Positions 34,700 through 51,867 of a stretch of 64,000 nt of DNA are shown here, piece after piece. The stretch is taken from the NCBI RefSeq assembly GCF_022343685.1, contig NZ_CP092123.1, positions 2,046,001 to 2,110,000 of the forward strand. The letters run 5' to 3'. The DNA is from Marinobacterium sediminicola. Lineage in GTDB: Bacteria > Pseudomonadota > Gammaproteobacteria > Pseudomonadales > Balneatricaceae. Position numbers and translations under genes: made by a program. Numbering within the stretch: the first letter of the stretch is position 1; the number at the start of each line of letters is the position of its first letter. The notes below the pieces were generated by a model. That model worked only from the letters and a program-made list of their open reading frames with translations. It was not told the DNA's origin and ran no database searches.

Positions 34700-36481
34700 C
34701 TAACCGGTGACATTGTTCGGGTATTCCGACAATCCCGGATTGCCTCTGACACCCTTGAGTACAGGAGTATTGAGTTTACTGACGTGAACTTCTTTACGGT
34801 CACGCAGGTACTCAGCCACTACGTCCCAGGCAGCCGGGCCAGCCGAGGGCTCCCTGACCGTGGCCCAACCGGCCACCTTGTAGGTTTTGTTTGCGTCAAT
34901 TCTGTCGCCGTTATCCAGGGTCATTTCACTGATGCGCGACCCGATACGCTGGCCCGGCTCGCAGACATAATTGAAGCCGCCTACGCGCACCATGTCTCCT
35001 CCGGATTGAAGGTAGGGATCGGGATGGAATAGGTTATCGGCCACATCTTCCAGAATCAGTTTCAATTCAGAACCTTTCATGTCACGCACATAGGTTTCCG
35101 GATAGGTCAGACAGGTCTGATCCAACACCCGCTCCATAGTGATCATTTGCCCCTTGAGTACAGTGGAGCCCCAGCGAAATCCGGGCGAAAGTGCAATCTG
35201 TGCATCCCCCACCGCTCGCAGAGCATCACAGATCACCTGATCAAAAGTGCCGTTAAAGTTGCCCCTGCGGAACATCAGATCCCCCGCGATTGCCAACTCT
35301 TCGTTAAGCCAATCAAGATGGGGGGCACGTTTTTCGTGAATCAGCGCCTGCATGCCTGCATCAGCCGGAATGAGTTTGGAAAATACCGGGAGCAGTGAGT
35401 AGCGGTAGCCCTCAAGCCTGCCATTGCGGATATCCAGGTCCAAAGCCCCGAGAAACTTGCCGTGTGAACCTGCATTGAAGACCAGCGTCTGCCCCCCGCT
35501 GTTCTTGACCAGAGTCGGTGCCGGCACGGCATCATGAGTGTGTCCGCCCAGTATCAGGTCGATGCCCGATACCCGACGGGCCATGGCCAGATCCACATCC
35601 ATGCCGTTGTGCGATAACAGAACCACAAGATCCACTTTTTCCTTGGCCCGCAACTGCTCAACGAGCATCTGCAACCGGTCATCGTAGATGTCGAAGGTCC
35701 AGTCGGGAATAAAGCGAGCCGGGTTCGTGATTCGTGTGCGCGGGAAAGCCTGGCCGATCACTGCAACACGAACACCACCAAGCTCACGGATGGTGTAAGG
35801 CTTGAAAACACGCCCCGAAAAATCGTCATACAGGTACTCCACATCACTTGAGAACATTGCTTCTTCAGTGATGAACACATTCTGCGCCAGGAATTCACCG
35901 TTGAAAGCTTTGATGTTGCTGAGAATTTCAGCCTGATGGTAGGTGAACTCCCAATGACCGGTCATGATGTCCACGCCCAACAAATTGCTGGCTTCCACCA
36001 TGTCCATGCCACGGCTTTTATATGCCGTTCCCGAACCCTGCCAACTGTCGCCTCCGTCCAGTAACAGGGTATTCTCGCGACCAAATTCCTCTCTCAAGCG
36101 CTCAACCAGTGTTTTCAGATGAGCAAAGCCGCCCACCTTGCCATATTGCAAAGCGGCATCGGCGTAATCGAGGTGAGTAAATGCATGGGCTTCGAGACTG
36201 CCGGGCTGAATGCCAAAATGCTGCAGCAGTCGGTCACCGACCAAATGAGGAACCCTGCCTGCCGCCTGCGCCACTCCAAGGTTAACGCTGGGCTCTCGGA
36301 AGTAGATCGGCAGTAGCTGAGCATGGCAGTCTGTCATATGCAACAGGCGCACGTTGCCGAACCGGGGGACTTCATATAGATCAGAAGCCTCCCTGCTGGC
36401 TGCTCCCGTCTTTAACGGCAGTACTCCAGCCATGCCGGCGATACCCAGCATCTTTGCAAATTCACGGCGTGTCATCGACAT
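34700..36481 (-). CDS. soxB: Thiosulfohydrolase SoxB
   Basis: The 593-residue periplasmic enzyme has a twin-arginine signal (TRREFAKMLG). The 5'-nucleotidase-type metallophosphoesterase domain shows 'HMTDCHAQLLP', 'LLDGGDSWQGSG' and 'GGHTHDA'. 'TGHWEFTY' replaces GNHE as in SoxB. The C-terminal nucleotidase domain follows. SoxB hydrolyses sulfate from the cysteine-bound thiosulfate on SoxYZ. The start at 36481 has AGGGG 7 bp upstream and was preferred to a longer frame. It is the last sox gene of the operon. Confidence 0.97.
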   Translation of the reverse strand: MSMTRREFAKMLGIAGMAGVLPLKTGAASREASDLYEVPRFGNVRLLHMTDCHAQLLPIYFREPSVNLGVAQAAGRVPHLVGDRLLQHFGIQPGSLEAHAFTHLDYADAALQYGKVGGFAHLKTLVERLREEFGRENTLLLDGGDSWQGSGTAYKSRGMDMVEASNLLGVDIMTGHWEFTYHQAEILSNIKAFNGEFLAQNVFITEEAMFSSDVEYLYDDFSGRVFKPYTIRELGGVRVAVIGQAFPRTRITNPARFIPDWTFDIYDDRLQMLVEQLRAKEKVDLVVLLSHNGMDVDLAMARRVSGIDLILGGHTHDAVPAPTLVKNSGGQTLVFNAGSHGKFLGALDLDIRNGRLEGYRYSLLPVFSKLIPADAGMQALIHEKRAPHLDWLNEELAIAGDLMFRRGNFNGTFDQVICDALRAVGDAQIALSPGFRWGSTVLKGQMITMERVLDQTCLTYPETYVRDMKGSELKLILEDVADNLFHPDPYLQSGGDMVRVGGFNYVCEPGQRIGSRISEMTLDNGDRIDANKTYKVAGWATVREPSAGPAAWDVVAEYLRDRKEVHVSKLNTPVLKGVRGNPGLSEYPNNVTG

Positions 36482-36546
36482 GGCATTCCCCTGAAAGGGC
36501 CTGGACGCTTTCACTCGATTAACGAGCAAGAGTGACTGGCAAAGGT

Positions 36547-36972
36547 CTATTCCGGCACGGCCCGCTGCCAGTTGGCTTCTGCGTTACGGTATTGTTTGAG
36601 CGACATACGCGCCAGGTATTTGGCGCGGGCTGCCAGCTCCATTGCAGATTGATACCGGCCTGCTGCCAAGGCTTCACGGGCCTGGCGTATATAAATGGCA
36701 GGACCTCGCCATTCGTATCCCACCGCTGCCGATTCCACTCTGAGGGCTTCTGCGCCGTCAATCAACGCTCTGGCATTGGCGGCATTAGGCTCAGCCATCG
36801 CCTCGATCTCTTCCGGGTGGAAGGTTGTGTGGATCTTGCCCCCGTAGCTGAACTCGTGCCCTTTGCCGTACAACGCCCGCTGCTCATTGAACACCTGCTC
36901 AAAAGAAGCGGCATAAAGCCCCTGGGCATGCAACAAGGTGACAACAGCCGGAACCAGCATCTTCCTCTTCAT
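36547..36972 (-). CDS. soxK: SoxXA-binding protein (SoxK/SAXB)
   Basis: The 141-residue periplasmic protein has a signal peptide (about 1-20). Its pattern 'YGKGHEFSYGGK.HTTFHPEEIEAMA' followed by 'AL..AG.YQ.A..LAARAKY..RM..K....A..NW' fits SoxXA-binding proteins. These proteins bind and stimulate SoxXA. It lies between soxA and soxB in the operon. The start is the ATG at 36972, after GGAGG. Confidence 0.85.
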   Translation of the reverse strand: MKRKMLVPAVVTLLHAQGLYAASFEQVFNEQRALYGKGHEFSYGGKIHTTFHPEEIEAMAEPNAANARALIDGAEALRVESAAVGYEWRGPAIYIRQAREALAAGRYQSAMELAARAKYLARMSLKQYRNAEANWQRAVPE

Positions 36973-36984
36973 CACACTGCCTCC

Positions 36985-37875
36985 TTACTTGCGAGCCCCG
37001 GGCCCGTTCACAGGCAAGCCGTTACTCATATATGTCTGAAAGTATTCGAGCTTGCGAAACGCGTCTGATTGGGGAGGCAACGGGACCGAGCGTGTATCAC
37101 GGTGACAACCTTCGTAGCGGCGATGCAAGGTGCCGATTTCACCCCATTTGGAGCGAAAAACCGGAAAGTGCGTTGGATGGCCCAGAGCAGGCCCCGGCAA
37201 GTCTGCACGTATGAGTATCCGGGAACCCTGCAAATGGCAGTTGGCACAGGAAAGATTCAACTGGCCACGCTTGGAATAGAAGAATTTCTTGCCGTCGAGA
37301 TACGCCTGGAGTGCTCTGGGGTCATCCTCAGGGATCTGGATAGCGAACCGTTTTCCACGGGAAGTAAATGCCATGTAAGCGGAGATTTTGGCGATATCCC
37401 CCCTTTTCCACGGCAAGGGTGCCTCGCCATTCTCAACGCGACACTCGTTAATCTCCTGCTCGAGGGTTTTGACGGTGCCTTCCTCTCGATTCCAATAGGG
37501 ATATTGATGGCGTATGCCGATACCGCCATTTTCAAAGCAGTCTCCATACCCTTTGCCGTTGGCAAAGGGCGTATTGAACAGCGCCTCACCCTCCTCCAGA
37601 TCAAATTCATAGGGTGGAAACGCCATCAGCGCATCCCACTGCTTGCGCGAGTCCGCATCAACAGCATAAATACCGTTCACATACTCATCCATTGGGACAT
37701 GCGGAAACCGCTTCAGGTAGTACTGTTGAAGCGCGAGGCGGTCTGCCTCAGGATCAACCCTTTGAAGCTGAGTCCCCGTTTCTGCCGCCAACATCACCTG
37801 AGACACGAGCATCAAGCTGAGTGCAAGCAAACTGCCTCTTCGTACATGCATAAAAACCCGGCAACTGGATTTCAT
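36985..37875 (-). CDS. soxA: SoxA c-type cytochrome subunit, single-heme type
   Basis: The 296-residue protein has a signal peptide (about 9-30). It has one heme-binding motif CANCH (C210, C213, H214), and the catalytic cysteine C257 in 'RYEGCHRDTR' ligates heme iron as a persulfide. The N-terminal domain keeps a Cys pair (C113, C145) but not a CxxCH, so only the one heme of single-heme SoxA is expected. With SoxX it oxidatively couples thiosulfate to SoxYZ. The start at 37875 overlaps the soxZ stop (ATGA). Confidence 0.95.
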   Translation of the reverse strand: MKSSCRVFMHVRRGSLLALSLMLVSQVMLAAETGTQLQRVDPEADRLALQQYYLKRFPHVPMDEYVNGIYAVDADSRKQWDALMAFPPYEFDLEEGEALFNTPFANGKGYGDCFENGGIGIRHQYPYWNREEGTVKTLEQEINECRVENGEAPLPWKRGDIAKISAYMAFTSRGKRFAIQIPEDDPRALQAYLDGKKFFYSKRGQLNLSCANCHLQGSRILIRADLPGPALGHPTHFPVFRSKWGEIGTLHRRYEGCHRDTRSVPLPPQSDAFRKLEYFQTYMSNGLPVNGPGARK

Positions 37876-38180
37876 GTGATTTCGGCAGTCTCGATGCCGA
37901 ACTTGCCTGTGTTTTCCTTCCAGCTCAGCTCCAGGGTATCGCCAACAGCCCCACCGGCGAAACTGAATGAGAAAAAGGGATTTTTCGAAACCGAAGGCCC
38001 AAGATTGGCGGCAAAGACCAATTTCCCGGCATGCCTGACCACCAGTTCAGACAGAAACTCTGCCGGGATGATATTGCCGGATGTATCACGGCGCCGCCCC
38101 GTTTCCATGATGTGCTTGATCAACATCTTCACTTCGGTTTTGCCGTTCATCGCCCTGGCCTTGACTCTTATGATCCCCAT
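37872..38180 (-). CDS. soxZ: Sulfur carrier complex subunit SoxZ
   Basis: The 102-residue Ig-like beta protein matches SoxZ: 'RVKARAMNGKTEVKMLIKHIMETG', 'GPSVSKNPFFSFSFAGG' and 'GDTLELSWKEN'. It has no signal peptide and is likely exported as a complex with SoxY. It overlaps soxA by 4 bp and follows soxY by 27 bp. Confidence 0.96.
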   Translation of the reverse strand: MGIIRVKARAMNGKTEVKMLIKHIMETGRRRDTSGNIIPAEFLSELVVRHAGKLVFAANLGPSVSKNPFFSFSFAGGAVGDTLELSWKENTGKFGIETAEIT

Positions 38181-38207
38181 GATGTACCTCTTGAAATTCT
38201 GTCCTGT

Positions 38208-38669
38208 CTAGCCGCCACAGCCACCAATCGTGACTTTGACCTCTTTGGTTGCACTATAGAGCTTGCCATCCGACTGAATCACAGCTGTGACATGAGTGGT
38301 CTGTCCCATACGAACACGGGTAGAAACCTCAGCCAGCGTCCCTTCCGGAATAATGAACTGTGCAGCCAAAGGAGAGGGATTCTCTGCGATAAAAACACTC
38401 ACCGTCTCAACATTAGGCAGAGTGGTACTGATCGTGAGCGGCACAACGGCGCCGTTTTCCGCAATATCAGGCGCATCTAGCATTACTTCGGCACTTTCTA
38501 CAGGCAAATCGCCTCCGTAAAGCGCCTTGATCGCAGCATTGGTTTCTCCGGCCGCAAAGGCCTCTCGCATCCAGGCCGCCATTGCCCACTGGGGCACCAA
38601 CGCACACAATCCAAGCAGGCCACCACCCGTTGCAAGGGCCTTGACCAGAGTTCGCCGCTTTATTGTCAT
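38208..38669 (-). CDS. soxY: Sulfur carrier SoxY
   Basis: The 153-residue protein has a Tat signal peptide (KRRTLVKALATGG, cleavage after AMA). It ends in the conserved carrier motif GGCGG, whose cysteine carries the thiosulfate. The body resembles SoxY ('PESAEV', 'NGAVVPLTIS'). Confidence 0.97.
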   Translation of the reverse strand: MTIKRRTLVKALATGGGLLGLCALVPQWAMAAWMREAFAAGETNAAIKALYGGDLPVESAEVMLDAPDIAENGAVVPLTISTTLPNVETVSVFIAENPSPLAAQFIIPEGTLAEVSTRVRMGQTTHVTAVIQSDGKLYSATKEVKVTIGGCGG

Positions 38670-38702
38670 CTAGAGGTCTCCCCCGTTGCCCCGACAGGGG
38701 CC

Positions 38703-39062
38703 TCAATACTGGTAGATATATTCCACGACCGCATCAATTTCGTCCTCTGACAAAATCCAGTGCTTGCCAACAGGAGGCATGATACTCAACGGGTTTGCAG
38801 CCGTTGCATCCCAAACCTGGGCACGCAACTTGCGCCTGTCGGGATAGCGTTGTTTCATGGCGATCATCATGGGTCCCTGGTTGCCAGGGAGATTGGTTAC
38901 AGGGTCGCTGATGTTATGACATGAAATACAATTGCCCCGACTCTTGTCGTGGTAGATGTCGCGCCCCAACCGTATCATCTCTTCCTGCGTGACCGCTGTT
39001 ACAGGGCCACAGAAGGCACAGGACGCCATCATTGCCCACAGGGTGGACCTCAATCTGCGCAT
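38703..39062 (-). CDS. soxX: SoxX c-type cytochrome subunit
   Basis: The 119-residue protein has a signal peptide (about 1-23) and a heme motif CISCH (C45, C48, H49). The methionine sixth ligand is probably in the 'PLSIMPPVGKH' segment. It forms SoxXA with the gene at 36985-37875. The start at 39062 has an excellent GGAGGG site and was preferred to the longer frame at 39107. It is the first gene of the sox operon. Confidence 0.93.
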   Translation of the reverse strand: MRRLRSTLWAMMASCAFCGPVTAVTQEEMIRLGRDIYHDKSRGNCISCHNISDPVTNLPGNQGPMMIAMKQRYPDRRKLRAQVWDATAANPLSIMPPVGKHWILSEDEIDAVVEYIYQY

Positions 39063-39376
39063 GCGATCCCTCCGGCTTTGTTTATGGGGTATCCCGCTTT
39101 GTGCCAATTCTTATACTTACAACTCTGTCAATCCATTTCTCTTATACGATAAGACTGTTTTGACCAGCACTTTCGACCCCCATTAACGCAGGTACAGATC
39201 TTCTACACCGCTTCAGACCTGTCTCAGTGGAAGTCCTTACAGTCAGGTGCACACCTGTCGTGTCCACGGCCAACGTTAAATCGGCAACAACGTACCTAAG
39301 CCCCCCCGCTATCCGTTATACTTCCAGTCAACGTTCATTCATCCTTGCCACGCGGACATTCTGCCCCTACACCATC
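39063..39376. promoter_or_regulatory. Divergent region between sox operon and pseudokinase gene
   Basis: No gene is supported in these 314 bases. The region must hold the promoters of soxX (leftward) and of the pseudokinase (rightward), but no convincing -35/-10 pair with normal spacing was found for either. A minus-strand TTGACA sits near 39127. A 14-bp dyad CAGGTG-CA-CACCTG is at 39244-39257, a plausible regulator site. A stretch of C residues near 39301 follows. Confidence 0.55.
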
Positions 39377-40804
39377 ATGACTCGATTTCTTTTACTGACG
39401 ACGCTGTTACTGACTGCTCCCCTGACTCATGCCAGTCTACTGGCGCCTTTCCGCAATGAGGACGGCAGTACACGTTGGCAATATGTCGCCAACTTTTCCA
39501 GTGGCGTGTTGATCATCCTGCTGACCATCGCGGCCGTCGTACTGTTCGTCACCTGGCGTCGTGCTCGACGCTATAACCTCGAACTGGAAGAGATTCGCAG
39601 CCACCTGGAGGAACGGGTTCAGGACCGCACGGCAAAACTGGAAAAAGAGGTGGCGGAACATGTCGTCACCACACAGAGACTTCAGGCATCGGAGTCATAC
39701 ATCCAGAACATCCTCAGTTCCATGCCTCTGGTATTGGTAGGTGTCAACGGGGATGGTGTGGTCACTCACTGGAACCGTCGTGCAGAGCAGGTATCAGGCA
39801 CCAAGGCTGAAGCGGCTATCGGCCGGAACCTTTGGTCCATTTACCCTGATATCACGGTCACGCCCGAGCATATCAAGCAGGCGTTGGCAAAGCGCAAACC
39901 GGTCACACTGAGATACAGCCAGCCAGGCAGTTACCATATGGATATCACCGTTTATCCGCTGGAAAACTACGTGGAACCCGGCGTAGTGGTGCTGGTGGAT
40001 GATGTCACCCGACGGGTGATTACCGAGAACATGCTGATTCAGCATGACAAGCTCTCGTCCATGGGTGAGCTGGCTACAGCCATGGCCAATGACATTCACA
40101 CCCCTCTGCAGGCCATTCTGTTCGACCTGCGCAGTTTCCATAAAGCGCTTGAAAGCGGCCAACTGCTGCCCAAGGACAGCCAGCAGGACAGTGAATTCAA
40201 ACGCCTTGAAGGTCTTTTGGAACATGCCTCCGATAATGGTCGCCAGGTTGAATCCGTCATTCGCAACCTGCTGCAGTTCGCACGAGGCCGAAATGCAACG
40301 GCCGAGCCGGCCAACGTTGTCGACATTCTGGAGCACTCCCTGACTCAAGCCAGCGAGGCTCTGTCGCTGCCGGATGCCATTCCGTTTGGCAAGATCAACG
40401 TTGAGCGCCACTTTGAAAAGGAAATCCCGCTGGCCCCCTGCCATATCACAGAGCTGCAACAGGTATTCCTGAGCCTGTTCCGCCATGCCTATCAATCTCT
40501 GGCCGAAAAAGCCAAGGCAAAAGGCATGGACTTCGTACCCACCATCAAGCTCTATGTCGGCCAGTCCTATGATGCCCTGTCGGTCCGTATCCAGCATAAC
40601 GGTACCGGCCTGAGCAACGAGGAGCAGATGCACCTGTTCGAGCCCTATGTGAACAGCGCAAACGTGGAGCAGCCTTCAGCTGCGGCCGACAGGCGGCTTT
40701 CGTTTGCCTACTTCGTCATTACCGAGCAGCACCGGGGACATATGGCGGTTACGTCCGATCTTGAGGTGGGTACCACCTTCCATATCCAGCTGGAGTTGCA
40801 TTAA
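39377..40804 (+). CDS. Membrane PAS-domain histidine kinase homologue lacking catalytic motifs (probable pseudokinase)
   Basis: The 475-residue protein has a signal-like N-terminus (1-19), one membrane helix (about 42-59), a coiled coil (about 65-105) and a PAS domain (about 105-215). A HisKA/HATPase-type region (about 222-475) follows. In the H-box, which usually reads AHEINxPL, it reads ANDIHTPL (237-244), so the phospho-acceptor His is Asn238. In the N-box the second Asn is H370. The D-box has HNGTG with Asp replaced by H407. The GLGL loop is absent (RRLSFA). All four catalytic features are thus altered. The start at 39377 is preferred to an upstream longer frame. It is divergent from soxX. 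Confidence 0.82.
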   Translation: MTRFLLLTTLLLTAPLTHASLLAPFRNEDGSTRWQYVANFSSGVLIILLTIAAVVLFVTWRRARRYNLELEEIRSHLEERVQDRTAKLEKEVAEHVVTTQRLQASESYIQNILSSMPLVLVGVNGDGVVTHWNRRAEQVSGTKAEAAIGRNLWSIYPDITVTPEHIKQALAKRKPVTLRYSQPGSYHMDITVYPLENYVEPGVVVLVDDVTRRVITENMLIQHDKLSSMGELATAMANDIHTPLQAILFDLRSFHKALESGQLLPKDSQQDSEFKRLEGLLEHASDNGRQVESVIRNLLQFARGRNATAEPANVVDILEHSLTQASEALSLPDAIPFGKINVERHFEKEIPLAPCHITELQQVFLSLFRHAYQSLAEKAKAKGMDFVPTIKLYVGQSYDALSVRIQHNGTGLSNEEQMHLFEPYVNSANVEQPSAAADRRLSFAYFVITEQHRGHMAVTSDLEVGTTFHIQLELH

Positions 40805-40829
40805 AAAAGGCGGCAATTGCCGCCTTTTT
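40803..40829 (+). terminator. Bidirectional terminator after the pseudokinase gene
   Basis: A long palindrome (AAAAAGGCGGCAA / TTGCCGCCTTTTT) at 40804-40829. The kinase stop codon TAA (40802-40804) overlaps its left end. It also serves the convergent enoyl-CoA hydratase gene. Confidence 0.92.
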
Positions 40830-42824: not shown

Positions 42825-45179
42825 TCATTCCATGTCAGACGTAAATGACTGAGCTCCCTGATTTATCGGCAGGATGACCGTGAAGCGGCTGCCTTCACCC
42901 GGAGTGCTGTCTACTTCAATGCGTCCATGATGAGCATTGACGATGCCGTAGGTGACCGCCAGTCCCAGTCCAGTACCCTGCCCCACATCCTTGGTGGTAT
43001 AAAAGGGTTCGAAGATATGATTCAGCTCTTCCGGGGCGATACCGCTGCCGTTATCGTCAACCACTAGACGAATTTCACCGTCCTCTCGCGAAGTTGAGAT
43101 CCGAATGCAGCCGTTAAGCTGAAGCGCTTGTGCAGCGTTGACCACCAACGCCATGATGACCTGGTTGATTTGCGCAGGTACCGCCTGGATTTTTGGCAAC
43201 TTTGGATCCAGTTCTGTTATGACTTCTGCCCTGTTCTTGTACTCATGACGACAAATCACCAGCGTCGTTTCGACACAATGATTGATATCGCACTCCTGCC
43301 ATGCGGTATCACCCGCATGCGAGAACTCCAACAGGCTTTCCGTGATGTGCCGTATGCGACGAATACCTTCCAGCGAATCTGCAAGAAGGTCGGGCAAGTC
43401 TTCCTCCATATAGGCAAACTTTTCCCGCTGCTCCATCTTCTTCAAAACCGTGCGTTCCCCTTCGTCTATCAGCTCAACTGCTCCCTGATATAAACGTACC
43501 AGGGCGGGAACATAGTCATTGAGGATCGCTACGTTGGCACTGACAAAGGCTAAAGGGTTATTGATTTCATGGGCCACACCAGTCGCCAACACGCCAACAG
43601 AGGCCATTTTTTCGGACTGAACCAGCTGGGCCTGAGTCTCCTTGAGCTTGCGAATCAATCCGGCATGAGCCTCACGTTCGTGACGCAACTCCTTATTCGC
43701 TTGCTTGAGTTTCTGGGTACGCTCCTCCACTCGAAGCTCCAAGGCCTGGTTCATACCCTCAAGACGTCGATTAGCCTCATCCAGCTGGCTACGACTGTGC
43801 TCAAGTGTCGTGGCCATATCCGACAAGCCTGCCGATACTGCAGACAGCTCCAGGATGTCGGATTCCACAGGTTGAGTACGATACTGTCCTTGACCAATGA
43901 GCCGAATCATCTGACGCAGAGCTCGCATGGGCTCGGATAGTCGCAAACTGACGCTCACCGATTTCTGGTAGAGATAGATCATAAACAGTACATAGAAGGC
44001 CAACAAAGCCAGAATCATGGCAACCGCAATCTGATCGACACGATCTTTCAGCGCGTTGGCATCCGCATACAGACGAGCCTGGTCTGCCACCACTAACAGA
44101 TGCCAGTCCGCTCCCGGTATACGTGACCAGGCAGCCAGTTTCGGCTGTCCGTTCAGTTCAAGCGCAACCACCCCCGAAGAGGATTGATCGAGGTTCTGGG
44201 CCAGGGGTCGGCTGTCAATGCGACGAAAGAGGTTAAACTCCTCCGGTTTGAACGTATCCTGCTTTATCGCCGTTGCATAATCGTGGTCGGTTAACTCTCT
44301 CAGCTGCCAGTCATACTCTGCGCTTTGCGGCATCGCCATGATCGTACCGGTACTGTCCACCAACAGCGCGTAACTGTCCCAGGGCAGTTTCAGAGCCAGA
44401 ACCTGTCGAATAATTTCTGACACCTGAATATCCAGCCCAACCACCCCTTCAAGAAAATCGGACCCCTTGCGATAGACCGGCGCAATGGCAGAAGCCATCC
44501 AGCCCTGTCCCGCTGGATCGATGTAGACATCGGTCCAGACCACTTGCCGCTCCGGGTTATGCTCAGCATCTGCTTCGTAGTAGAAGTTATAATCCCTTAC
44601 ATTGAGGTCAACCGGATACTGCTCCAGGACATTGAAACTGGGGTAAATCCGGTTCATGGAATCATGGGTGTTAAGATAAGCCTGAGTCACCAGCGCACTG
44701 CTTTCGACCAACTGTCTCATCAACGGATCAATTTGAACCAGTTGCCAGGCCTTGGCTCTTTCGGCATCGCCAATATCTGTGATCGAAGAATAAAACATTG
44801 CAGCCCCAGGCGTTTCAGGCCGGGTATACCAGACCCCGCTGTCACTGTGGAGATAGCGGGAAAGCTCAACGTCATCAGGCACATAGGGCTGGTCGTAAGC
44901 CTGGGTTACAAGCGCAGCGAAAAGATCGGTCATTTCGGCAACGCCCTGCAACTGGGCTGTAATCACGTCTGACTCGATCCGGGCAGTCTCCAGCAACGAT
45001 TCCTGAGCGCTGCGCTGCATGGTCGCTATGTTCTGGTCTCGAACCAGATAGTTCGTCACCAGATATGCGACAATCAAGGCCAATTCGATAAAAATGATAG
45101 GAATCAGGGCGTTCCGAATATAGGTTCCCCACAGTACTCGAAAAACGCTTTTTCCCTTACCAAGGCCTTGCTTGATCAT
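42825..45179 (-). CDS. Cache-domain sensor histidine kinase
   Basis: The 784-residue membrane protein has TM1 (about 22-45), a large periplasmic dCache-like sensor domain, TM2 (about 385-410) and a HAMP-like segment. A coiled coil, a HisKA domain with phospho-acceptor His537 in 'GVAHEINNPLAF' and an HATPase domain (DNGSGI, GTGLGL) follow. Start 45179 is preferred to the longer frame at 45386 because the latter overlaps the upstream kinase gene and adds non-family sequence. It is the last gene of the signalling cluster, 22 bp after the cytosolic kinase gene. Confidence 0.9.
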   Translation of the reverse strand: MIKQGLGKGKSVFRVLWGTYIRNALIPIIFIELALIVAYLVTNYLVRDQNIATMQRSAQESLLETARIESDVITAQLQGVAEMTDLFAALVTQAYDQPYVPDDVELSRYLHSDSGVWYTRPETPGAAMFYSSITDIGDAERAKAWQLVQIDPLMRQLVESSALVTQAYLNTHDSMNRIYPSFNVLEQYPVDLNVRDYNFYYEADAEHNPERQVVWTDVYIDPAGQGWMASAIAPVYRKGSDFLEGVVGLDIQVSEIIRQVLALKLPWDSYALLVDSTGTIMAMPQSAEYDWQLRELTDHDYATAIKQDTFKPEEFNLFRRIDSRPLAQNLDQSSSGVVALELNGQPKLAAWSRIPGADWHLLVVADQARLYADANALKDRVDQIAVAMILALLAFYVLFMIYLYQKSVSVSLRLSEPMRALRQMIRLIGQGQYRTQPVESDILELSAVSAGLSDMATTLEHSRSQLDEANRRLEGMNQALELRVEERTQKLKQANKELRHEREAHAGLIRKLKETQAQLVQSEKMASVGVLATGVAHEINNPLAFVSANVAILNDYVPALVRLYQGAVELIDEGERTVLKKMEQREKFAYMEEDLPDLLADSLEGIRRIRHITESLLEFSHAGDTAWQECDINHCVETTLVICRHEYKNRAEVITELDPKLPKIQAVPAQINQVIMALVVNAAQALQLNGCIRISTSREDGEIRLVVDDNGSGIAPEELNHIFEPFYTTKDVGQGTGLGLAVTYGIVNAHHGRIEVDSTPGEGSRFTVILPINQGAQSFTSDME

Positions 45180-45201
45180 GTTCAGCTCTCGAATTGAAGG
45201 A

Positions 45202-46113
45202 TTAATCTCCGGCGGTAACCGGTAACAGGATACTGAAACAGGCTCCACCACCTTCGCGGTTGGTCGCCGAAATTGAACCCTGATGATGCTTGATAATCTG
45301 ATGCGAGACAGACAGTCCAAGCCCGGTTCCTTCACCAGACGGTTTCGACGTAACGAAAGGTTCAAAGAGCAACGGCATGATCTCATCCGCTATCCCTTCT
45401 CCCTGGTCGCAGACACAGATTTCAATCATGTTCTCGGCTTCGAGAAGACGCGTACTCACCTCAATGTCTCCGCCTTTGGGCATTGCCTGAGCCGCATTAA
45501 CGAGCACATTAATGATGACCTGAGACAGCTGCGAAGGATGTCCCCAGATCGGGGGAATGTCGCCGTAGCATTTCCGTACTGCGGTTACTACGTACTTGAG
45601 CTCGTGATGCACCAGTTTCAGCGCTGCATCGATCAGGGGGTTCAACTCAACCCACCGTGCATCATCGGCATCATTGCGAACAAAATCGCGCAGTGTTGAG
45701 AGGATCTCCTCGACTCTGTTTAAACCATCAGAGGTTTCGCTGAGCAGAATCGGCAACTCATCATGGAGGTATTCATAGTCGAATTTTTGCTTGAGCTGTT
45801 TGATAGCCGATACCATTTCGGCATTACCTGTCGTACCGACCAGTTCCAGCACTTCACTCAGCAGCTGATCCAGATTGCCCGTGTAATGCTGTAATGTTTG
45901 CAGGTTGGTTTTGACATAGCAGACCGGATTATTAAGCTCATGCGCAACCCCGGAGGTCAGTTTCCCCAGGGTGGCCAGTTTTTCAGACTGCAACATACGG
46001 TGATCCACTGTCCGGCCTCCCGGCAACGCGGACGCATCGTTTTGATCCCGCTCAACATCGGCCACCGCCCGCGAGGATACCCCTGCGGTCGAGACATTAC
46101 CGTCTTCAACCAT
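45202..46113 (-). CDS. Cytosolic histidine kinase
   Basis: The 303-residue protein has no membrane segment or PAS domain. HisKA phospho-acceptor His58 is in 'GVAHELNNPV'. The N-box is 'NVLVNAAQAM', the D-box 'CDQGEGI' and the G2 box 'GTGLGLSV'. It overlaps the REC-HDOD gene by 8 bp, which suggests a matched pair. The input is probably another protein rather than a periplasmic ligand. Confidence 0.9.
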   Translation of the reverse strand: MVEDGNVSTAGVSSRAVADVERDQNDASALPGGRTVDHRMLQSEKLATLGKLTSGVAHELNNPVCYVKTNLQTLQHYTGNLDQLLSEVLELVGTTGNAEMVSAIKQLKQKFDYEYLHDELPILLSETSDGLNRVEEILSTLRDFVRNDADDARWVELNPLIDAALKLVHHELKYVVTAVRKCYGDIPPIWGHPSQLSQVIINVLVNAAQAMPKGGDIEVSTRLLEAENMIEICVCDQGEGIADEIMPLLFEPFVTSKPSGEGTGLGLSVSHQIIKHHQGSISATNREGGGACFSILLPVTAGD

Positions 46114-47176
46114 TTGGAACCATCTGCACTATCTGCTCGTTATCGAACCCGCCGTGCCTCATTTTCAGGGCGAGATTCAACATCTCGCTAACGGGCTCGC
46201 ACTCACCTGGAAGCTCATCATCACATTGGTGCTGAACCGCTTCGACAACTTCGGGATCAAACCCCCAAAGTTCAAGCAGGTAAGCACCGACAACTGACGC
46301 TTCGTGGAGGTCAGTGGGAGCCTCTGCCAAGTTTTTTTCAACATGCAGTTCCAGGACCAGCTGACCAACGTTGTGCAGCAGCGCACTGATAATCGCCAGA
46401 TTTTTGACCGGTTTGCTGACTCTGTGCAGATCACACACGACACACACCTGCTCCGCCAACAGCAAAGCCTCACGCATCAGTCGATCACCCACTTTCAGCA
46501 AGCGTGAGGGGCCCTGATGATAGAGTTCAGCTATCAGCACCAGGTTGTGAATGGTTTCCAATCCCAAACGCATCACCGCCACTTCGATTTCCTGGGTCCG
46601 TGAACTGAAGCCAAAGAATGGTGAATTGACCAGCTGCAGTATCTTGCTCAAAAGGCTCTGATCCTCACGAATCAAGGCCGCTACATTTGCCACATCCGGT
46701 TCCTTGCTTTCAAGCTCCTGTGTGATGCGCTGGTAAACTTTAGGTAAAACAGGCAGGCCATTCAGTTGCCCCATCTGCTGCCGACGATGAAGGCTTATCG
46801 GCAATTGGTGCAGTACCCGAGCTTTGGTCAGCACATTCTCGATCGTTTCCTGCTCGAAGGGCTTACGCATAATGAAATGGGCGGCGGCCGTCGCCTGCAC
46901 CGCACTGTTCAACCGAGCATCCCCCGTCAGCAATATCCGCAGAGCTTCGGGTAACACTTCAGCAACTTTTTGCAACAGCTCGACGCCATCCATATGCGCC
47001 AGGTGCTTGTCTGCGACGACAACCCAAGGCGAAATAGACTTCAGTGCTTCCAGTGCTTGATCTGGCGAGTTAAAAAAGTGCATCTCCCAATCGCGATGGC
47101 TCAACCGCAGCATTCTGCGCACCGCATTCAGGACCCTGGGTTCGTCATCAATAAAAAAAATTGACGGGTTTTCCAT
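46106..47176 (-). CDS. Response regulator with HDOD output domain
   Basis: The 356-residue protein has a REC domain (about 5-120, phospho-acceptor Asp56 in 'VVADKHLAHMDG' and Lys in 'RKPF') and a C-terminal HDOD domain (about 140-330). HDOD is a metal-free relative of HD domains used in signalling and protein interaction. It is coupled to the cytosolic kinase gene by an 8-bp overlap. Confidence 0.9.
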   Translation of the reverse strand: MENPSIFFIDDEPRVLNAVRRMLRLSHRDWEMHFFNSPDQALEALKSISPWVVVADKHLAHMDGVELLQKVAEVLPEALRILLTGDARLNSAVQATAAAHFIMRKPFEQETIENVLTKARVLHQLPISLHRRQQMGQLNGLPVLPKVYQRITQELESKEPDVANVAALIREDQSLLSKILQLVNSPFFGFSSRTQEIEVAVMRLGLETIHNLVLIAELYHQGPSRLLKVGDRLMREALLLAEQVCVVCDLHRVSKPVKNLAIISALLHNVGQLVLELHVEKNLAEAPTDLHEASVVGAYLLELWGFDPEVVEAVQHQCDDELPGECEPVSEMLNLALKMRHGGFDNEQIVQMVPNG

Positions 47177-47205
47177 CCAAACCGCTCTCCACCGACTTTT
47201 AGGGC

Positions 47206-47796
47206 TTATTCCACCGAATGGGTAACATGTTCACTGGCCAGCGGTACCATCTTCTTGACCAGATTCATTAACTGCTGATTGTCGAATGGTTTGGCAAGAA
47301 CCGCATCAGCCCCCTCATCCAGAGCTCGCTGTAAAGAGAGCTGATCCAGAGCTGAAATGACGATAACTTTGGTAGCCGCGGTTTCGGGAGTGGTGCGTAT
47401 GAACTTGAGTACGTCATAGCCGCTGATACCCGGCATGCGAAGATCCAGGGTCACCAGCGCAGGCTGCTGCTTCATCAGCAAACTGCCTCCCTGAAAACCG
47501 TCGGTCGCGATAGTGGTGTCATAACCGGCAGTTCTCAGCACACGACCGATGGAGCGCGCCACTGCCGCTTCGTCATCAATGATCAGAATGCGGCGGTTGC
47601 CCTCTCCGACGAGCTCAGGCGGGATCGGCATACCATGCTCATTCAGGAAATGGACGAAGTCCTCTATCTGAACCCGGTTATTCCCTCGCCCGGGCAGTTT
47701 GAAGCCTTTCAAATCACCACGGTCAATCCAACGGATTACAGTCCGCAGGTTAACGTCACACATCTTGGCAATTTCACCGGTGGTGAGTGTTTTCAT
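47206..47796 (-). CDS. Excisionase-like HTH fused to a receiver domain
   Basis: The 196-residue protein has an N-terminal winged HTH of the MerR/excisionase type (about 1-55: 'TTGEIAKMCDVNLRTVIRWIDRGDLKGFKLPGRG') followed by a REC domain (about 68-190) with Asp118 in 'LVTLDLRMPG' and Lys in 'LAKPF'. The order is unusual, since the DNA-binding domain precedes the receiver. It is probably the transcriptional output of the cluster. 29 bp separate it from the REC-HDOD gene. Confidence 0.9.
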   Translation of the reverse strand: MKTLTTGEIAKMCDVNLRTVIRWIDRGDLKGFKLPGRGNNRVQIEDFVHFLNEHGMPIPPELVGEGNRRILIIDDEAAVARSIGRVLRTAGYDTTIATDGFQGGSLLMKQQPALVTLDLRMPGISGYDVLKFIRTTPETAATKVIVISALDQLSLQRALDEGADAVLAKPFDNQQLMNLVKKMVPLASEHVTHSVE

Positions 47797-47883
47797 CCTG
47801 TACCTCGCTACAGCCCGAGACGATTGTAACGGCCATATGCGCTTAGCGTTTAAGTGACATTTAAGACATTTGGATAATTTAGA

Positions 47884-50800
47884 CTAATTCCTGCATTGGT
47901 CAATAGCGCCCCGCTGTTGCCGAAGGATAACTTGTGCCTGCTCATAGTCGAATTCATCTACTGCCTTGCAGAGAACATCAAACTGATTGCCCAATACCAA
48001 CTTCAACACGGCAGTCTGGTCATGTAAAAACCGGACAGCCTCAAAATCAGCCGCATCCAACAACTGCTCCAGCTCATCACAGATCGAATCCAAGGTATCT
48101 CTTGTTACATCAAGGCTGGCTTCAGGGGCTTCTGCTTCAGTAAGATCCAGTCGTTTCAATGCGGCAAGCAAGCACTGCAGGCTCTCTTTCAATTCAGCCG
48201 GCGGGTGTGGCACCCCACCTGTCCCTGATGACAGCACGTCTTTCACCTGCTGCTCGTACTCTGCGGCAAGCTGCGCAACCTTATAAGCACCGATCTGCCC
48301 TGCACTGCCCTTCAAGGAATGTATCAATCGTCTTGCTTCTTCCTTGTCATCCCTTCGCAGGGCGCCGATTACCAGCGCAATGCACGCCTGCTGGCCGACA
48401 ATGAATCGTTGCAGAAGTCGTCTGTAGAGGGAGTGGTCATGCATCGCCAGGCGCAATCCCGTCAAGGTATCCACACCATCGATTTGGAGTGCTGTCAGGT
48501 CCCCTGAGGGCGTTTCCGGGCCGGTCTGTGATCTGATCGCATTCTTTTGAGCCGGCCTCATCCATTTCAACAGGACATCCCAGAGCCGCTCAGGATCAAT
48601 CGGTTTGGCCAGGTAATCGTTCATTCCTGCTGCCAGACAAGCTTCACGATCATCACTCATCACATTGGCTGTCATCGCCACAACAGGAAGGGTCTGATGG
48701 TTGTGTAGCTCCCGCAGTTTGCGGGTCGCAGTCAAGCCATCCATGATCGGCATCTGCATGTCCATCAATACCAGGTCATAACGGTTTTTGCCGATCATCT
48801 GCAGGGCTTCAGCACCGTTATTGGCAACGTTGACCTCCACGCCCACCTGCTTCAGCAGCTCAACAGCTACTTCCTGATTGAGCAGATTGTCTTCTACCAG
48901 CAGCACATTCGACCCTCGCAGAGTATTTCGCAGCCCAACCCGCCAGGCCAGAGAACGCGACCGCTCTTGTTTGCGGGCATCAGCCGCATGATGCTTGCCG
49001 GGCGATTGAGTCAGGACATCAAATAACAGCGAGGGCTGTATCGGCTTGGTCAGAATGGCATCCAGCAGGTTACTGACTTGATCGGTCAACGCCTCACCAA
49101 AAGGCGTCATCAAAATCACCCGAGGAAGCGCAGTCGGATATACTTTGCGAATCTGTTTGGCTGTCGATATTCCGTCCTGATGGGGCATGTGCAAGTCCAG
49201 GAGAACCACGTCATAGACGTGTCCTTGCAACCGGGAAGCAGCCAGTTGCCCCATCGCTTCATCTGCCGAAGCCACAATATCAGCGTTGAACTGCATCCGA
49301 GCCAACATGGCGGCTATCGCCTCGCGGGCACACGCATTGTCATCGACAACCAGCACCGAAAGTCCCCTGAGATCATGCCCGGGCTGGAAACGGTTCTCTC
49401 GTTGCCCGGTTGCGGGATCAAGCGGGAGGGTGCACCAGAATCGGGCGCCTTCGCCCAGCGCACTTTCTACCCCTATGCAACCTCCCATGATCTCGACCAG
49501 ATGCCTGGAAATTGCCAACCCCAGACCACTACCACCATACTTGCGCGTGGTAGAACCATCCGCTTGGGCAAAGCTGTGAAACAGTTTTTTCTGCTGTTGT
49601 TCCGAAATACCTATGCCCGTGTCACGTACACTCAGCTCAAGATCTCCTGCAGAGCCTTGACGACAACTCAGCTCGGCACGCACTTCAATTTCACCCTTGT
49701 CAGTGAACTTGACCGCATTATTGGCAAAATTAAGGAGAATCTGCTGCAAGCGCAGGGGGTCACCCATGAGCCGGTCAGGCAGCTGCTCATCCAGATGGAC
49801 AATCAGTTCTACCCCCTTCTCTGCGATTTTTGGAGCCAACAGGTCGGTCATTTCGCTGACCAGTTCTTCGAGGCTGAATTCCACTCGCTCCAGCTTCAGC
49901 TTGCCGGCCTCAATTTTGGAAAAATCGAGAATGTCATTAATGATGCTCAGGAGGTGCCTGCTGGACTGTTCGACCTTGCTCATATAATTGCTTTGACGTT
50001 CATCAAGCTCGGTCTGTTGCAGTAAATGAGTCATGCCAATAATGGCATTCATGGGCGTGCGTATTTCGTGACTCATATTCGCCAGAAAATCAGCCTTGGT
50101 TTGTGCAGCGTCTTCTGCCAGACGCCTGGCCTGCTCCATGCGCTCCATCGCCTGACGCTCAGCCGATATATCAATCAGCATGCCGACAAGGCCTTTGCTC
50201 ATATCATCCGGGTCTACCGCTCGTGCCTGCATTCGACTCCAGAAACGTGATCCATCCTTACGCACCAGCTCTCGCTCTTCGGCGAAAAAGCCTCGATCCC
50301 CTATATCAGTTTTGACATGCTTGCCTACCTCAACAAAAGCACACTCGTCTGGATACCAGCATCGGGTTGACTGACCTATGAGTTCACCGGCCTCGTAGCC
50401 CATCATCTGTTCAAGACAGCGGTTGCAGCGCAAAATCTCACGATTACGAACAAACACAATGCCCGCCATGGCCGCGTCAAACAAAGCCTGCTGCTGGCTG
50501 TTTGCCTCCTGAAGACTTTGCGCCAATGCACTAAGCTCTCGGGTACGTGCTTCAACCAGATCCTCGAGATGCAGACGATGTTGCTGCAGCTCTTCCTCGG
50601 TTTTTTTGCGGTCGGAAATGTCATTCGACACCACATGCAGAATGTCCTTCTCGTCGCGGCGAATGGCGGTAATCATCAGTTCGGCCGGAAAGGACTGTCC
50701 GCTGGCTCTAAGACTTTGCCACTCCGTACGGACGCTGCCTTTTGTTTCAGCCGTCGCCAGTATCTTGAGCAATGCAACGGCTGAACGCTCTCCGTCAGGC

Positions 50801-51867
50801 TGCACTTCAGGCGAGATATCCAGGGGCGTCAATCCCTTCAACTGCTTGAAACTCTGCATCTGCAGCATATCCAGTGTTGCCTGGTTCGCGGCTATGAAAT
50901 GGCCGTTCTCAATTAATGCGATTGCCTGACGTGTATTCTCGAACAGCATACGAAAGCGTTCTTCGCTATCGGTCAGTGCTGCTGTCCTTTGCTCGACTGC
51001 CCGGCTAAGGGTTCTCAGCCATGCCAACGCAGCCAGAAGTGCCAACAGCAGGAATAGAGAGGTATAGAGGACCCAGGAAACCCAAGCCGGTGTTTTGGCT
51101 GGGTTAAGCGCAATACCAAGCCAATAGTCCGATAAATCCTGCTCTTCTTCAGCGGAGAACAGACCAAACCCCTGCTCCACTTCGATTTTCAGCTGCTCAT
51201 TACCAATCCCGACTGCCCAGCGGCCGGAGGCGGTGTATAGGGGAGCGGTATGGCGGAACTGCGATTCCAGTCCCTTCTGCCCCAGAAAATAGTGAGCAAT
51301 CGGAGAATGCCCGCAAAAGACATGGATATTGCCCTGTGCGGCAGACTCAACCATCTCCGGATAAGTTTCAAAGAGAAGCTGGTTACCCAAGCCCTGTTGT
51401 TGCAAATAGGTAGAACACAGATCGCCCTTTCGTGCCCCGATCAGGAAGCCCTCTGCAGAAGCTGCATCCGTAATTCCTCTGATTTCCTCATGAAAAAACA
51501 GCACCACATCAGCCTGGATCCAGGGCTCGGAAAAAAGGAAGGTCTGCATTCTCTCAGGGGATGTTGCGATTGCATCAACCACATCGGCCTCACCGTGCTG
51601 TACACGACGCAGGGCTTCAGCCCATGGCATGCCTTCAAGCTGAACCATCCGCCCCGTCTTTTGCTGCCACAAGGCCCAGCGGTCGATGATCAGCCCACGC
51701 AACTCACCATTAGAATCTCTGTATGCGAAAGGTGGTTGGCGGTCGGCAACCACCACGCGCAGAGGTGGCCGCTCAGCGTCAGCGCGTGCCGGTTTGCTGC
51801 ACAGCATTACCACTGTTGCCAGAGCCAACAACACCCAAATAGATGCTTTAAGCCATGAGCAGATCAT
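47884..51867 (-). CDS. Hybrid sensor kinase: SBP-PAS-PAS-HK-REC-REC-Hpt
   Basis: The 1327-residue protein has a signal peptide (1-29), a periplasmic SBP_bac_3 solute-binding domain (about 35-250) and one membrane helix (about 262-285). Two PAS domains (about 300-420, 455-570), HisKA with His600, HATPase (about 700-815), REC1 (Asp891) and REC2 (Asp1036) follow, then Hpt (His1183) and a C-terminal helical extension to 1327 without an obvious His. The full relay chain is intact. It senses a small solute, probably an amino acid or polar organic compound, but the ligand is not known. Confidence 0.94.
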   Translation of the reverse strand: MICSWLKASIWVLLALATVVMLCSKPARADAERPPLRVVVADRQPPFAYRDSNGELRGLIIDRWALWQQKTGRMVQLEGMPWAEALRRVQHGEADVVDAIATSPERMQTFLFSEPWIQADVVLFFHEEIRGITDAASAEGFLIGARKGDLCSTYLQQQGLGNQLLFETYPEMVESAAQGNIHVFCGHSPIAHYFLGQKGLESQFRHTAPLYTASGRWAVGIGNEQLKIEVEQGFGLFSAEEEQDLSDYWLGIALNPAKTPAWVSWVLYTSLFLLLALLAALAWLRTLSRAVEQRTAALTDSEERFRMLFENTRQAIALIENGHFIAANQATLDMLQMQSFKQLKGLTPLDISPEVQPDGERSAVALLKILATAETKGSVRTEWQSLRASGQSFPAELMITAIRRDEKDILHVVSNDISDRKKTEEELQQHRLHLEDLVEARTRELSALAQSLQEANSQQQALFDAAMAGIVFVRNREILRCNRCLEQMMGYEAGELIGQSTRCWYPDECAFVEVGKHVKTDIGDRGFFAEERELVRKDGSRFWSRMQARAVDPDDMSKGLVGMLIDISAERQAMERMEQARRLAEDAAQTKADFLANMSHEIRTPMNAIIGMTHLLQQTELDERQSNYMSKVEQSSRHLLSIINDILDFSKIEAGKLKLERVEFSLEELVSEMTDLLAPKIAEKGVELIVHLDEQLPDRLMGDPLRLQQILLNFANNAVKFTDKGEIEVRAELSCRQGSAGDLELSVRDTGIGISEQQQKKLFHSFAQADGSTTRKYGGSGLGLAISRHLVEIMGGCIGVESALGEGARFWCTLPLDPATGQRENRFQPGHDLRGLSVLVVDDNACAREAIAAMLARMQFNADIVASADEAMGQLAASRLQGHVYDVVLLDLHMPHQDGISTAKQIRKVYPTALPRVILMTPFGEALTDQVSNLLDAILTKPIQPSLLFDVLTQSPGKHHAADARKQERSRSLAWRVGLRNTLRGSNVLLVEDNLLNQEVAVELLKQVGVEVNVANNGAEALQMIGKNRYDLVLMDMQMPIMDGLTATRKLRELHNHQTLPVVAMTANVMSDDREACLAAGMNDYLAKPIDPERLWDVLLKWMRPAQKNAIRSQTGPETPSGDLTALQIDGVDTLTGLRLAMHDHSLYRRLLQRFIVGQQACIALVIGALRRDDKEEARRLIHSLKGSAGQIGAYKVAQLAAEYEQQVKDVLSSGTGGVPHPPAELKESLQCLLAALKRLDLTEAEAPEASLDVTRDTLDSICDELEQLLDAADFEAVRFLHDQTAVLKLVLGNQFDVLCKAVDEFDYEQAQVILRQQRGAIDQCRN

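Follow-up and report, generated by a model that had tools for sequence, protein, structure and literature searches.

A pseudo-histidine-kinase gene beside the sox genes of Marinobacterium sediminicola belongs to an old and preserved family

A degenerate sensor kinase gene and its protein

The window (the whole stretch of 64,000 nucleotides analysed here) corresponds to positions 2046001-2110000 of the 3.55 Mb genome of Marinobacterium sediminicola. On its forward strand, the ORF at 39377-40804 encodes a protein of 475 residues, P0001, which was identified by Pfam and alignment, whose start is shared by close homologues and whose frame contains no internal stop, as the preliminary description had stated. 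A terminator-like hairpin, recognised by a consensus match only, lies directly 3' of the gene (40804-40829, + strand). Its neighbours on the opposite strand are soxB, SAXB, soxA, soxZ, soxY and soxX (34700-39107, - strand), all of which pass the NCBIfam cut-offs.

P0001 consists, in order, of a leader, a stub of ~20 residues, one transmembrane (TM) helix, a PAS domain, DHp and CA; all features within the gene are on the + strand. The leader (residues 1-19; 39377-39433) is predicted from the sequence to be signal-peptide-like, with the conserved Ala19 at the likely cleavage point. It is followed by a short, putatively periplasmic stub (residues 20-39; 39434-39493) with the signature DGxTxWQYVAN, delimited by low entropy and an N-terminus search, and by a TM helix at about residues 40-60 (39494-39556), which is predicted from hydrophobicity and lies within a long helix of the structure model. 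The PAS domain covers residues 106-215 (39692-40021). In Pfam, HATPase_c (34.8 bits; cut-off 26.4) and PAS_4 (32.5; 23.1) exceed the cut-offs while HisKA reaches only 17.2 bits (26.9), and in this form the PAS-HisKA-HATPase layout described earlier stands. The best NCBIfam match is AtoS with 117 bits; AtoS-type PAS kinases are thus sequence kin of P0001, but far under the cut-off of 646, and their catalytic residues are absent in P0001.

The changes at the catalytic motifs had all been read correctly. In the H-box region (40058-40108), Asn238 (codon 40088-40090) sits in MANDIHTPL at the position of the phospho-acceptor His; in the N-box remnant (40448-40498), the second Asn is His370 (codon 40484-40486); in the D-box remnant IQHNGTG (40589-40609), His407 (codon 40595-40597) replaces Asp; and the GLGL motif is gone, the G2 loop being replaced by AADRRLSF. 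The alignment additionally revealed that the first N-box Asn is Ser366. P0001 accordingly has neither the phospho-acceptor His nor the N-box Asn, D-box Asp and G2 loop of histidine kinases. In the segment 40637-40714, the F-box (FEP) is kept and the former ATP lid and the G2 box are lost; also retained are the NG of the D-box and the acidic Asp239 directly after the lost His.

All 46 HATPase_c places of the genome, seven of them CheA-, GyrB/ParE-, MutL- or HtpG-like, were read both by pattern and by eye. P0001 is the only one of these above the cut-off without N-box, D-box and G2 together; three others (L220, L224 and L245) have no D-box Asp and keep the N-box and the glycine-rich loop. Below the Pfam cut-off, one place (L244; G000:C1:2776065-2776355), within a 441-residue frame, has a CA-like domain whose N, D and G2 motifs are unrecognisable.

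An AlphaFold2 model based on nine sequences has a mean pLDDT of 65.6 and a pTM of 0.39; in residues 311-410, pLDDT averages 75-89 per block of ten, and it is below 50 in the former lid. Foldseek matches of the model are LOV/FixL chimeras, ThkA, HK853, DivL (4q20) and the NifL-NifA complex (9qq6). The model and these matches support the fold, not its details. Together with the HATPase_c score, the matches to histidine kinase structures place P0001 among the DHp-CA homologues of HisKA/HATPase_c kinases, with HisKA below its cut-off and modest model confidence.

Extent, motif states and selection of the family

A search with P0001 at 1e-20 gave matches in 33 of 57 relatives, seven of which were distant and of the intact type. 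At 1e-60, 71 of the 116 genomes of its own family matched; none of these 71 matches contains an internal stop, and that of G099 is cut short by the end of its contig. At 1e-50, matches were found in 60 of 390 genomes sampled over the order: 46 with a degenerate member (including M. sediminicola itself and G176, which has an odd tail), two with an intact kinase bearing the stub, and 12 with a more distant match. Ten of these 12 were aligned, those of G188 and G338 being left out; each of the ten is intact and has no stub. When the N-terminus was searched for by itself, E < 1e-7 was reached in 18 of 38 genomes, always at the family gene, with E 0.049 or worse in the others. The degenerate members fall into ten family codes (f1, f11, f16, f22, f24, f40, f41, f44, f45 and f47) and are also present in two MAGs of a named collection (L045, L046). 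In total, we conclude that P0001 is one member of an old pseudo-histidine-kinase family spread over these codes and that the loss of the residues for catalysis is far older than the window alone could show. With gene tree and species tree uncompared, we infer that the family was most likely inherited vertically.

We aligned 125 sequences, 106 of which are degenerate once L141 is dropped. L141 (G176:C13:1-1500), which was kept out of all counts of 106, lies at a contig end and combines a D-box His with a C-terminus that carries GTGLGL and differs from that of its genus mate; it may be an assembly chimera or the result of gene conversion. Among the 106, the phospho-acceptor position is H in 71, N in 11, Y in 8, Q in 7, S in 5, R in 3 and F in 1. 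The position of the D-box Asp is H in 104, F in 2 and Asp in none, as opposed to Asp in 18/18 intact sequences, and that of the second N-box Asn (370) is H in 90, Y in 6, S in 6 and N in 4; none of the 106 has the Leu-Gly of GxGLGL. Asp239, Pro243, Phe421, Leu441, Ser442, His452 and Gly454 are invariant in all degenerate members, and residue 440 is Arg or His in 105. In family code f44 (L144, L145, L147-L150), the D-box is even more degenerate (EHKG, EHRG, WHKG, AHQG etc.) and the stretch (T/E)HHxGHMSVTSD is retained.

For the tree, from which motif columns were excluded, 123 rows were reduced to 108 by a 93% identity filter; L114, truncated by a contig end, was left out but counts among the 106, and L117 and L124 were dropped as duplicates. 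The two intact stub-bearing kinases, L033 and L142, are sister to a single clade of 90 degenerate rows with a support of 99 (SH-aLRT, quick search), in a tree in which the program flags long branches that meet, so that the placement of long rows is uncertain. On this tree, the D-box state changes once and the presence of His nine times, one His loss (to N or S) being shared by the genus of M. sediminicola and genus g5. We read the changes as losses because His is present in 18/18 intact rows. Because a single D-box change is followed by nine later His changes, the tree indicates that the ATP site died once, before His was lost repeatedly.

Under a GY codon model, omega is 0.072 for the own clade of P0001 (15 homologues, 450 codons), 0.048 for nine homologues that keep His and 0.073 for seven with Tyr or Phe, while an intact comparator, NtrB (14 genomes from the two genera of the own clade, 346 codons), gives 0.032; the tree lengths (4.6 to 12.4) point to saturation of synonymous sites. 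For the three closest sequences (tree length 2.5), omega is 0.060, versus 0.033 for NtrB of the same three genomes. By domain, the own-clade values are 0.052 from stub to coil, 0.044 in PAS, 0.086 in DHp and 0.071 in CA. Thus, the family is under purifying selection that is somewhat less tight than on the core kinase NtrB, as judged from an omega about twice as high. The dN/dS values and the absence of internal stops bear out the earlier suggestion that P0001 is a preserved pseudokinase and not the product of decay: it is a histidine kinase homologue with the catalytic residues gone and the frame under selection.

Site rates, normalised over residues 106-474, were compared between 90 degenerate and 16 intact rows, the latter having no stub. 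The ratio of degenerate to intact rates is below 1 in PAS (0.68) and the C-terminal strands (0.79), 1.0 in the N-box, 1.4 in the H-box and 1.5 in both the D-box and the second DHp helix; most relaxed are the docking part of the first DHp helix (1.9), G2 (2.5), the F-box (3.4) and the ATP lid (5.0). Within the degenerate clade, the coil before the H-box (0.25) and the H-box (0.20) evolve slowly, the CA sites T459, Q471 and F337 are tightened relative to intact relatives, and residues 31-45 at the edge of stub and TM helix have a mean entropy of 0.85 over the 90 rows, second to the H-box stretch (0.73). Comparing sets that differ in size and depth, these rates suggest that ATP handling, phosphatase function and normal docking of a regulator were lost while input and core fold were kept. 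A kept phosphatase function had been considered separately; the position four residues past His is Asn in 16/18 intact relatives and T, I, A, L, K, V, R, P or another residue in degenerate members, and this lack of conservation speaks against it.

Neighbourhood of the gene

Seven other members of the genus were searched. In four (G002-G005), soxB, a sigma-54 regulator, cydA and cydB are followed by the pseudokinase gene, and in G001 the same order fits across a contig break. G006 and G007 have the pseudokinase gene, no soxB above the cut-off and a regulator-cydA pair elsewhere. In L039, L040, L041 and L043, the gene is preceded by a PAS-sigma-54 regulator, cydA, cydB and then a small cydX-like frame; one example each of regulator, cydA and cydB was named by Pfam and the rest by cluster, and the cydX-like frame by eye. 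The genome of M. sediminicola gave no cydA match and no full-length sigma-54 regulator; 7/7 other members have both, so the regulator-cydAB block was most likely lost here and its neighbours closed up. Given the order of the block in relatives and its absence here, the sox adjacency is most likely recent, and the place of the gene beside the sox genes most likely derived or accidental. Cytochrome bd oxidase subunit I as such was found in all seven other genomes and not in that of M. sediminicola (G000).

The gene and soxB, the sole sox gene used across genomes, do not co-occur significantly: in 57 genomes, both are present in 10, the gene alone in 16, soxB alone in 7 and neither in 24 (Fisher p 0.25), and within the family the respective numbers are 9, 14, 6 and 7 (p 0.74). 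One member of the gene set, that of G038, is an intact kinase with the stub. Neither conserved linkage nor co-occurrence with sox genes was thus found, and the role in thiosulfate oxidation proposed in the preliminary description is not borne out by the synteny in relatives, the missing cydAB block and the absence of co-occurrence. The sigma-54 regulator was also considered as a NifA-like partner and rejected, the genome of M. sediminicola having no full-length match.

At 49 loci, some of them short and three holding intact relatives, no cognate neighbour recurs widely or across families. The most widespread ORF cluster (14 groups) is antisense and inside the gene itself; the next are an ABC ATPase in seven groups and a short-chain dehydrogenase in five, both named by eye and members of generic superfamilies for which orthology is not implied. 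Among the loci compared, cydAB adjoins the gene in its own genus only. A search model derived from four receiver domains in the window found receiver-domain ORFs with a midpoint within 2.5 kb at 0/49 loci, and receiver-domain genes within 7 kb at 6/49, one being the window itself. As to gene fusions, the longest upstream extension of the gene (L024) shows no known domain by eye. The upstream DNA of the four relatives aligned has the cydX-like frame (by eye) in all and a hairpin-like stretch in three; no clear promoter is common to the window and these relatives, and a promoter scan found none.

Three observations on neighbouring genes stand apart. The window holds a dense two-component run at 42825-51867 (- strand), with a dCache histidine kinase and a second kinase whose called frame overlaps the first by 185 bases (both by Pfam) and, by eye, a receiver-HDOD-like protein, a helix-turn-helix and receiver protein and a long hybrid kinase. 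At L061, an ORF of a kinase cluster adjoins the family gene. In two different families, intact relatives (L064:8910-10765 and L066:8835-10732) lie directly 5' of a gene that we take to be queD-like; this was not seen in L181.

Function and comparison with known systems

Relatives in many families keep the same dead but preserved protein, which is therefore probably a working, non-enzymatic signalling protein. The reading that we favour, and hold to be rather probable, is that of a non-catalytic, membrane-anchored PAS signalling adaptor that acts by contact and is not specifically linked to sox. On the tree, the ATP-site motifs were lost once, in an ancestor that had this stub, TM helix and PAS, and the phospho-acceptor His, from then on not strictly needed, was lost repeatedly. 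From the model and the pattern of constraint, the PAS-DHp-CA sensor fold appears to be retained; signals from stub, TM helix and PAS would then be transmitted through conformation and contact with other proteins instead of phosphotransfer, and a cognate response regulator would not be docked in the normal way. The likeliest output, more speculatively, would be that the protein binds and gates a membrane partner or a kinase whose gene lies elsewhere. Several points count against such an adaptor: the loci compared yielded no partner or recurring neighbour across families; His, present in 71/106 members, may keep a role there; the N-box stretch is overall as constrained as in intact kinases; and the case draws on rates from 90 versus 16 rows, on a model of modest confidence, and on an omega about twice that of NtrB.

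A broader version is more tentative. The order-wide family may be a post-enzymatic sensor whose ATP site was rebuilt once, with the fixed Asp-to-His change, to give an output that is purely structural or independent of nucleotides and is read by a membrane partner through the nearly invariant 20-residue stub. If so, a two-component fold would signal without phosphate, response regulator or cognate gene.

We considered other explanations of the same data. The protein could form heterodimers with an active HisKA kinase and raise or damp it, like native ChrS-HrrS or RetS-GacS, as the slow rates in the H-box and the coil before it would allow; in PMC9491836, ChrS is a CA-dead kinase that acts through a paralogue and whose own His is dispensable. 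The same paper reports that truncated ChrS gave no significant heterodimer signal in a two-hybrid assay. Moreover, no partner gene is linked, each genus member gives one match only at E 1e-20, and an intact paralogue is not constant, with both types held by G045, G056, G159, G176 and G408 of other families. Heterodimerisation is a somewhat doubtful candidate. The scaffolding or titration of another sensor that the preliminary description suggested is a possible role.

Alternatively, the ATP pocket may have been rebuilt to take up a different ligand, His407 and Arg440 providing new contacts, so that CA became a sensor. The near-fixed residues at both positions and the tightening of T459, Q471 and F337 are in line with this, but the lid is free to vary, His407 may be structural and there is no known ligand, and we regard a new ligand site as unlikely. 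That the protein reads a phosphorylated response regulator in the manner of DivL is quite improbable. DivL is among the Foldseek matches and has Tyr at the His position, according to PMC4211667, as do eight family members; however, the docking face is relaxed, receiver genes are absent within 2.5 kb at 49 loci, and the CA motifs, which DivL keeps according to that paper, were the first to go in the P0001 family. Regulation of thiosulfate oxidation through the divergent neighbour soxX is very improbable: only the adjacency in M. sediminicola argues for it, and this most likely stems from the loss of regulator-cydAB, while soxB does not co-occur with the gene and has no match above the cut-off in two genus members that have the gene. 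Decay of the gene, for which the lost motifs and an omega about twice that of NtrB might speak, is scarcely credible with an intact frame, the clade-wide omega and ten family codes, and is refuted at the family level.

Annotation of these proteins as sensor histidine kinases, or as sox regulators by adjacency, would mislead. Bacterial histidine pseudokinases are, to our knowledge, seldom studied. They are a known kind, and new here are the order of losses, the extent of the family and the fixed Asp-to-His change; a literature search of open-licence PMC papers gave none that mentions a family of this kind in these bacteria in its title or the opening of its abstract. The family is a natural experiment on the use of a sensor kinase once phosphotransfer is gone, with His shed in about nine lineages and the rest under strong selection.

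One comparison is with the intact kinases of genus g19 (L033, L142), which share stub, TM helix and PAS and are sister on the tree, but still carry the His, the N-box Asn, the D-box Asp and GxGLGL. NifL, whose complex with NifA is among the fold matches, likewise combines PAS with a kinase-like protein and controls its partner by binding. However, NifL binds ADP and adjoins nifA, whereas no sigma-54 partner is stably linked to the P0001 family gene. The frameshift pseudokinase ChrS of Corynebacterium is CA-dead with a dispensable His; according to PMC9491836, it is a mutant from the laboratory whose CA is frameshifted and truncated, whereas the P0001 family is natural and old and keeps the CA fold.

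DivL of Caulobacter, the best known case, resembles P0001 in its PAS-DHp-CA layout and non-His phospho-acceptor position, and works without phosphotransfer (PMC4211667). DivL retains the H, N, G1, F and G2 motifs except the His, and reads DivK~P. By contrast, the P0001 family has neither retained CA motifs nor a conserved regulator-docking patch: its CA motifs were the first to be lost, His persists in most members and the docking face has relaxed. Compared with DivL as described there, in which His was lost and the ATP-site motifs were kept, the order of losses in the P0001 family thus appears reversed, and it can be timed.
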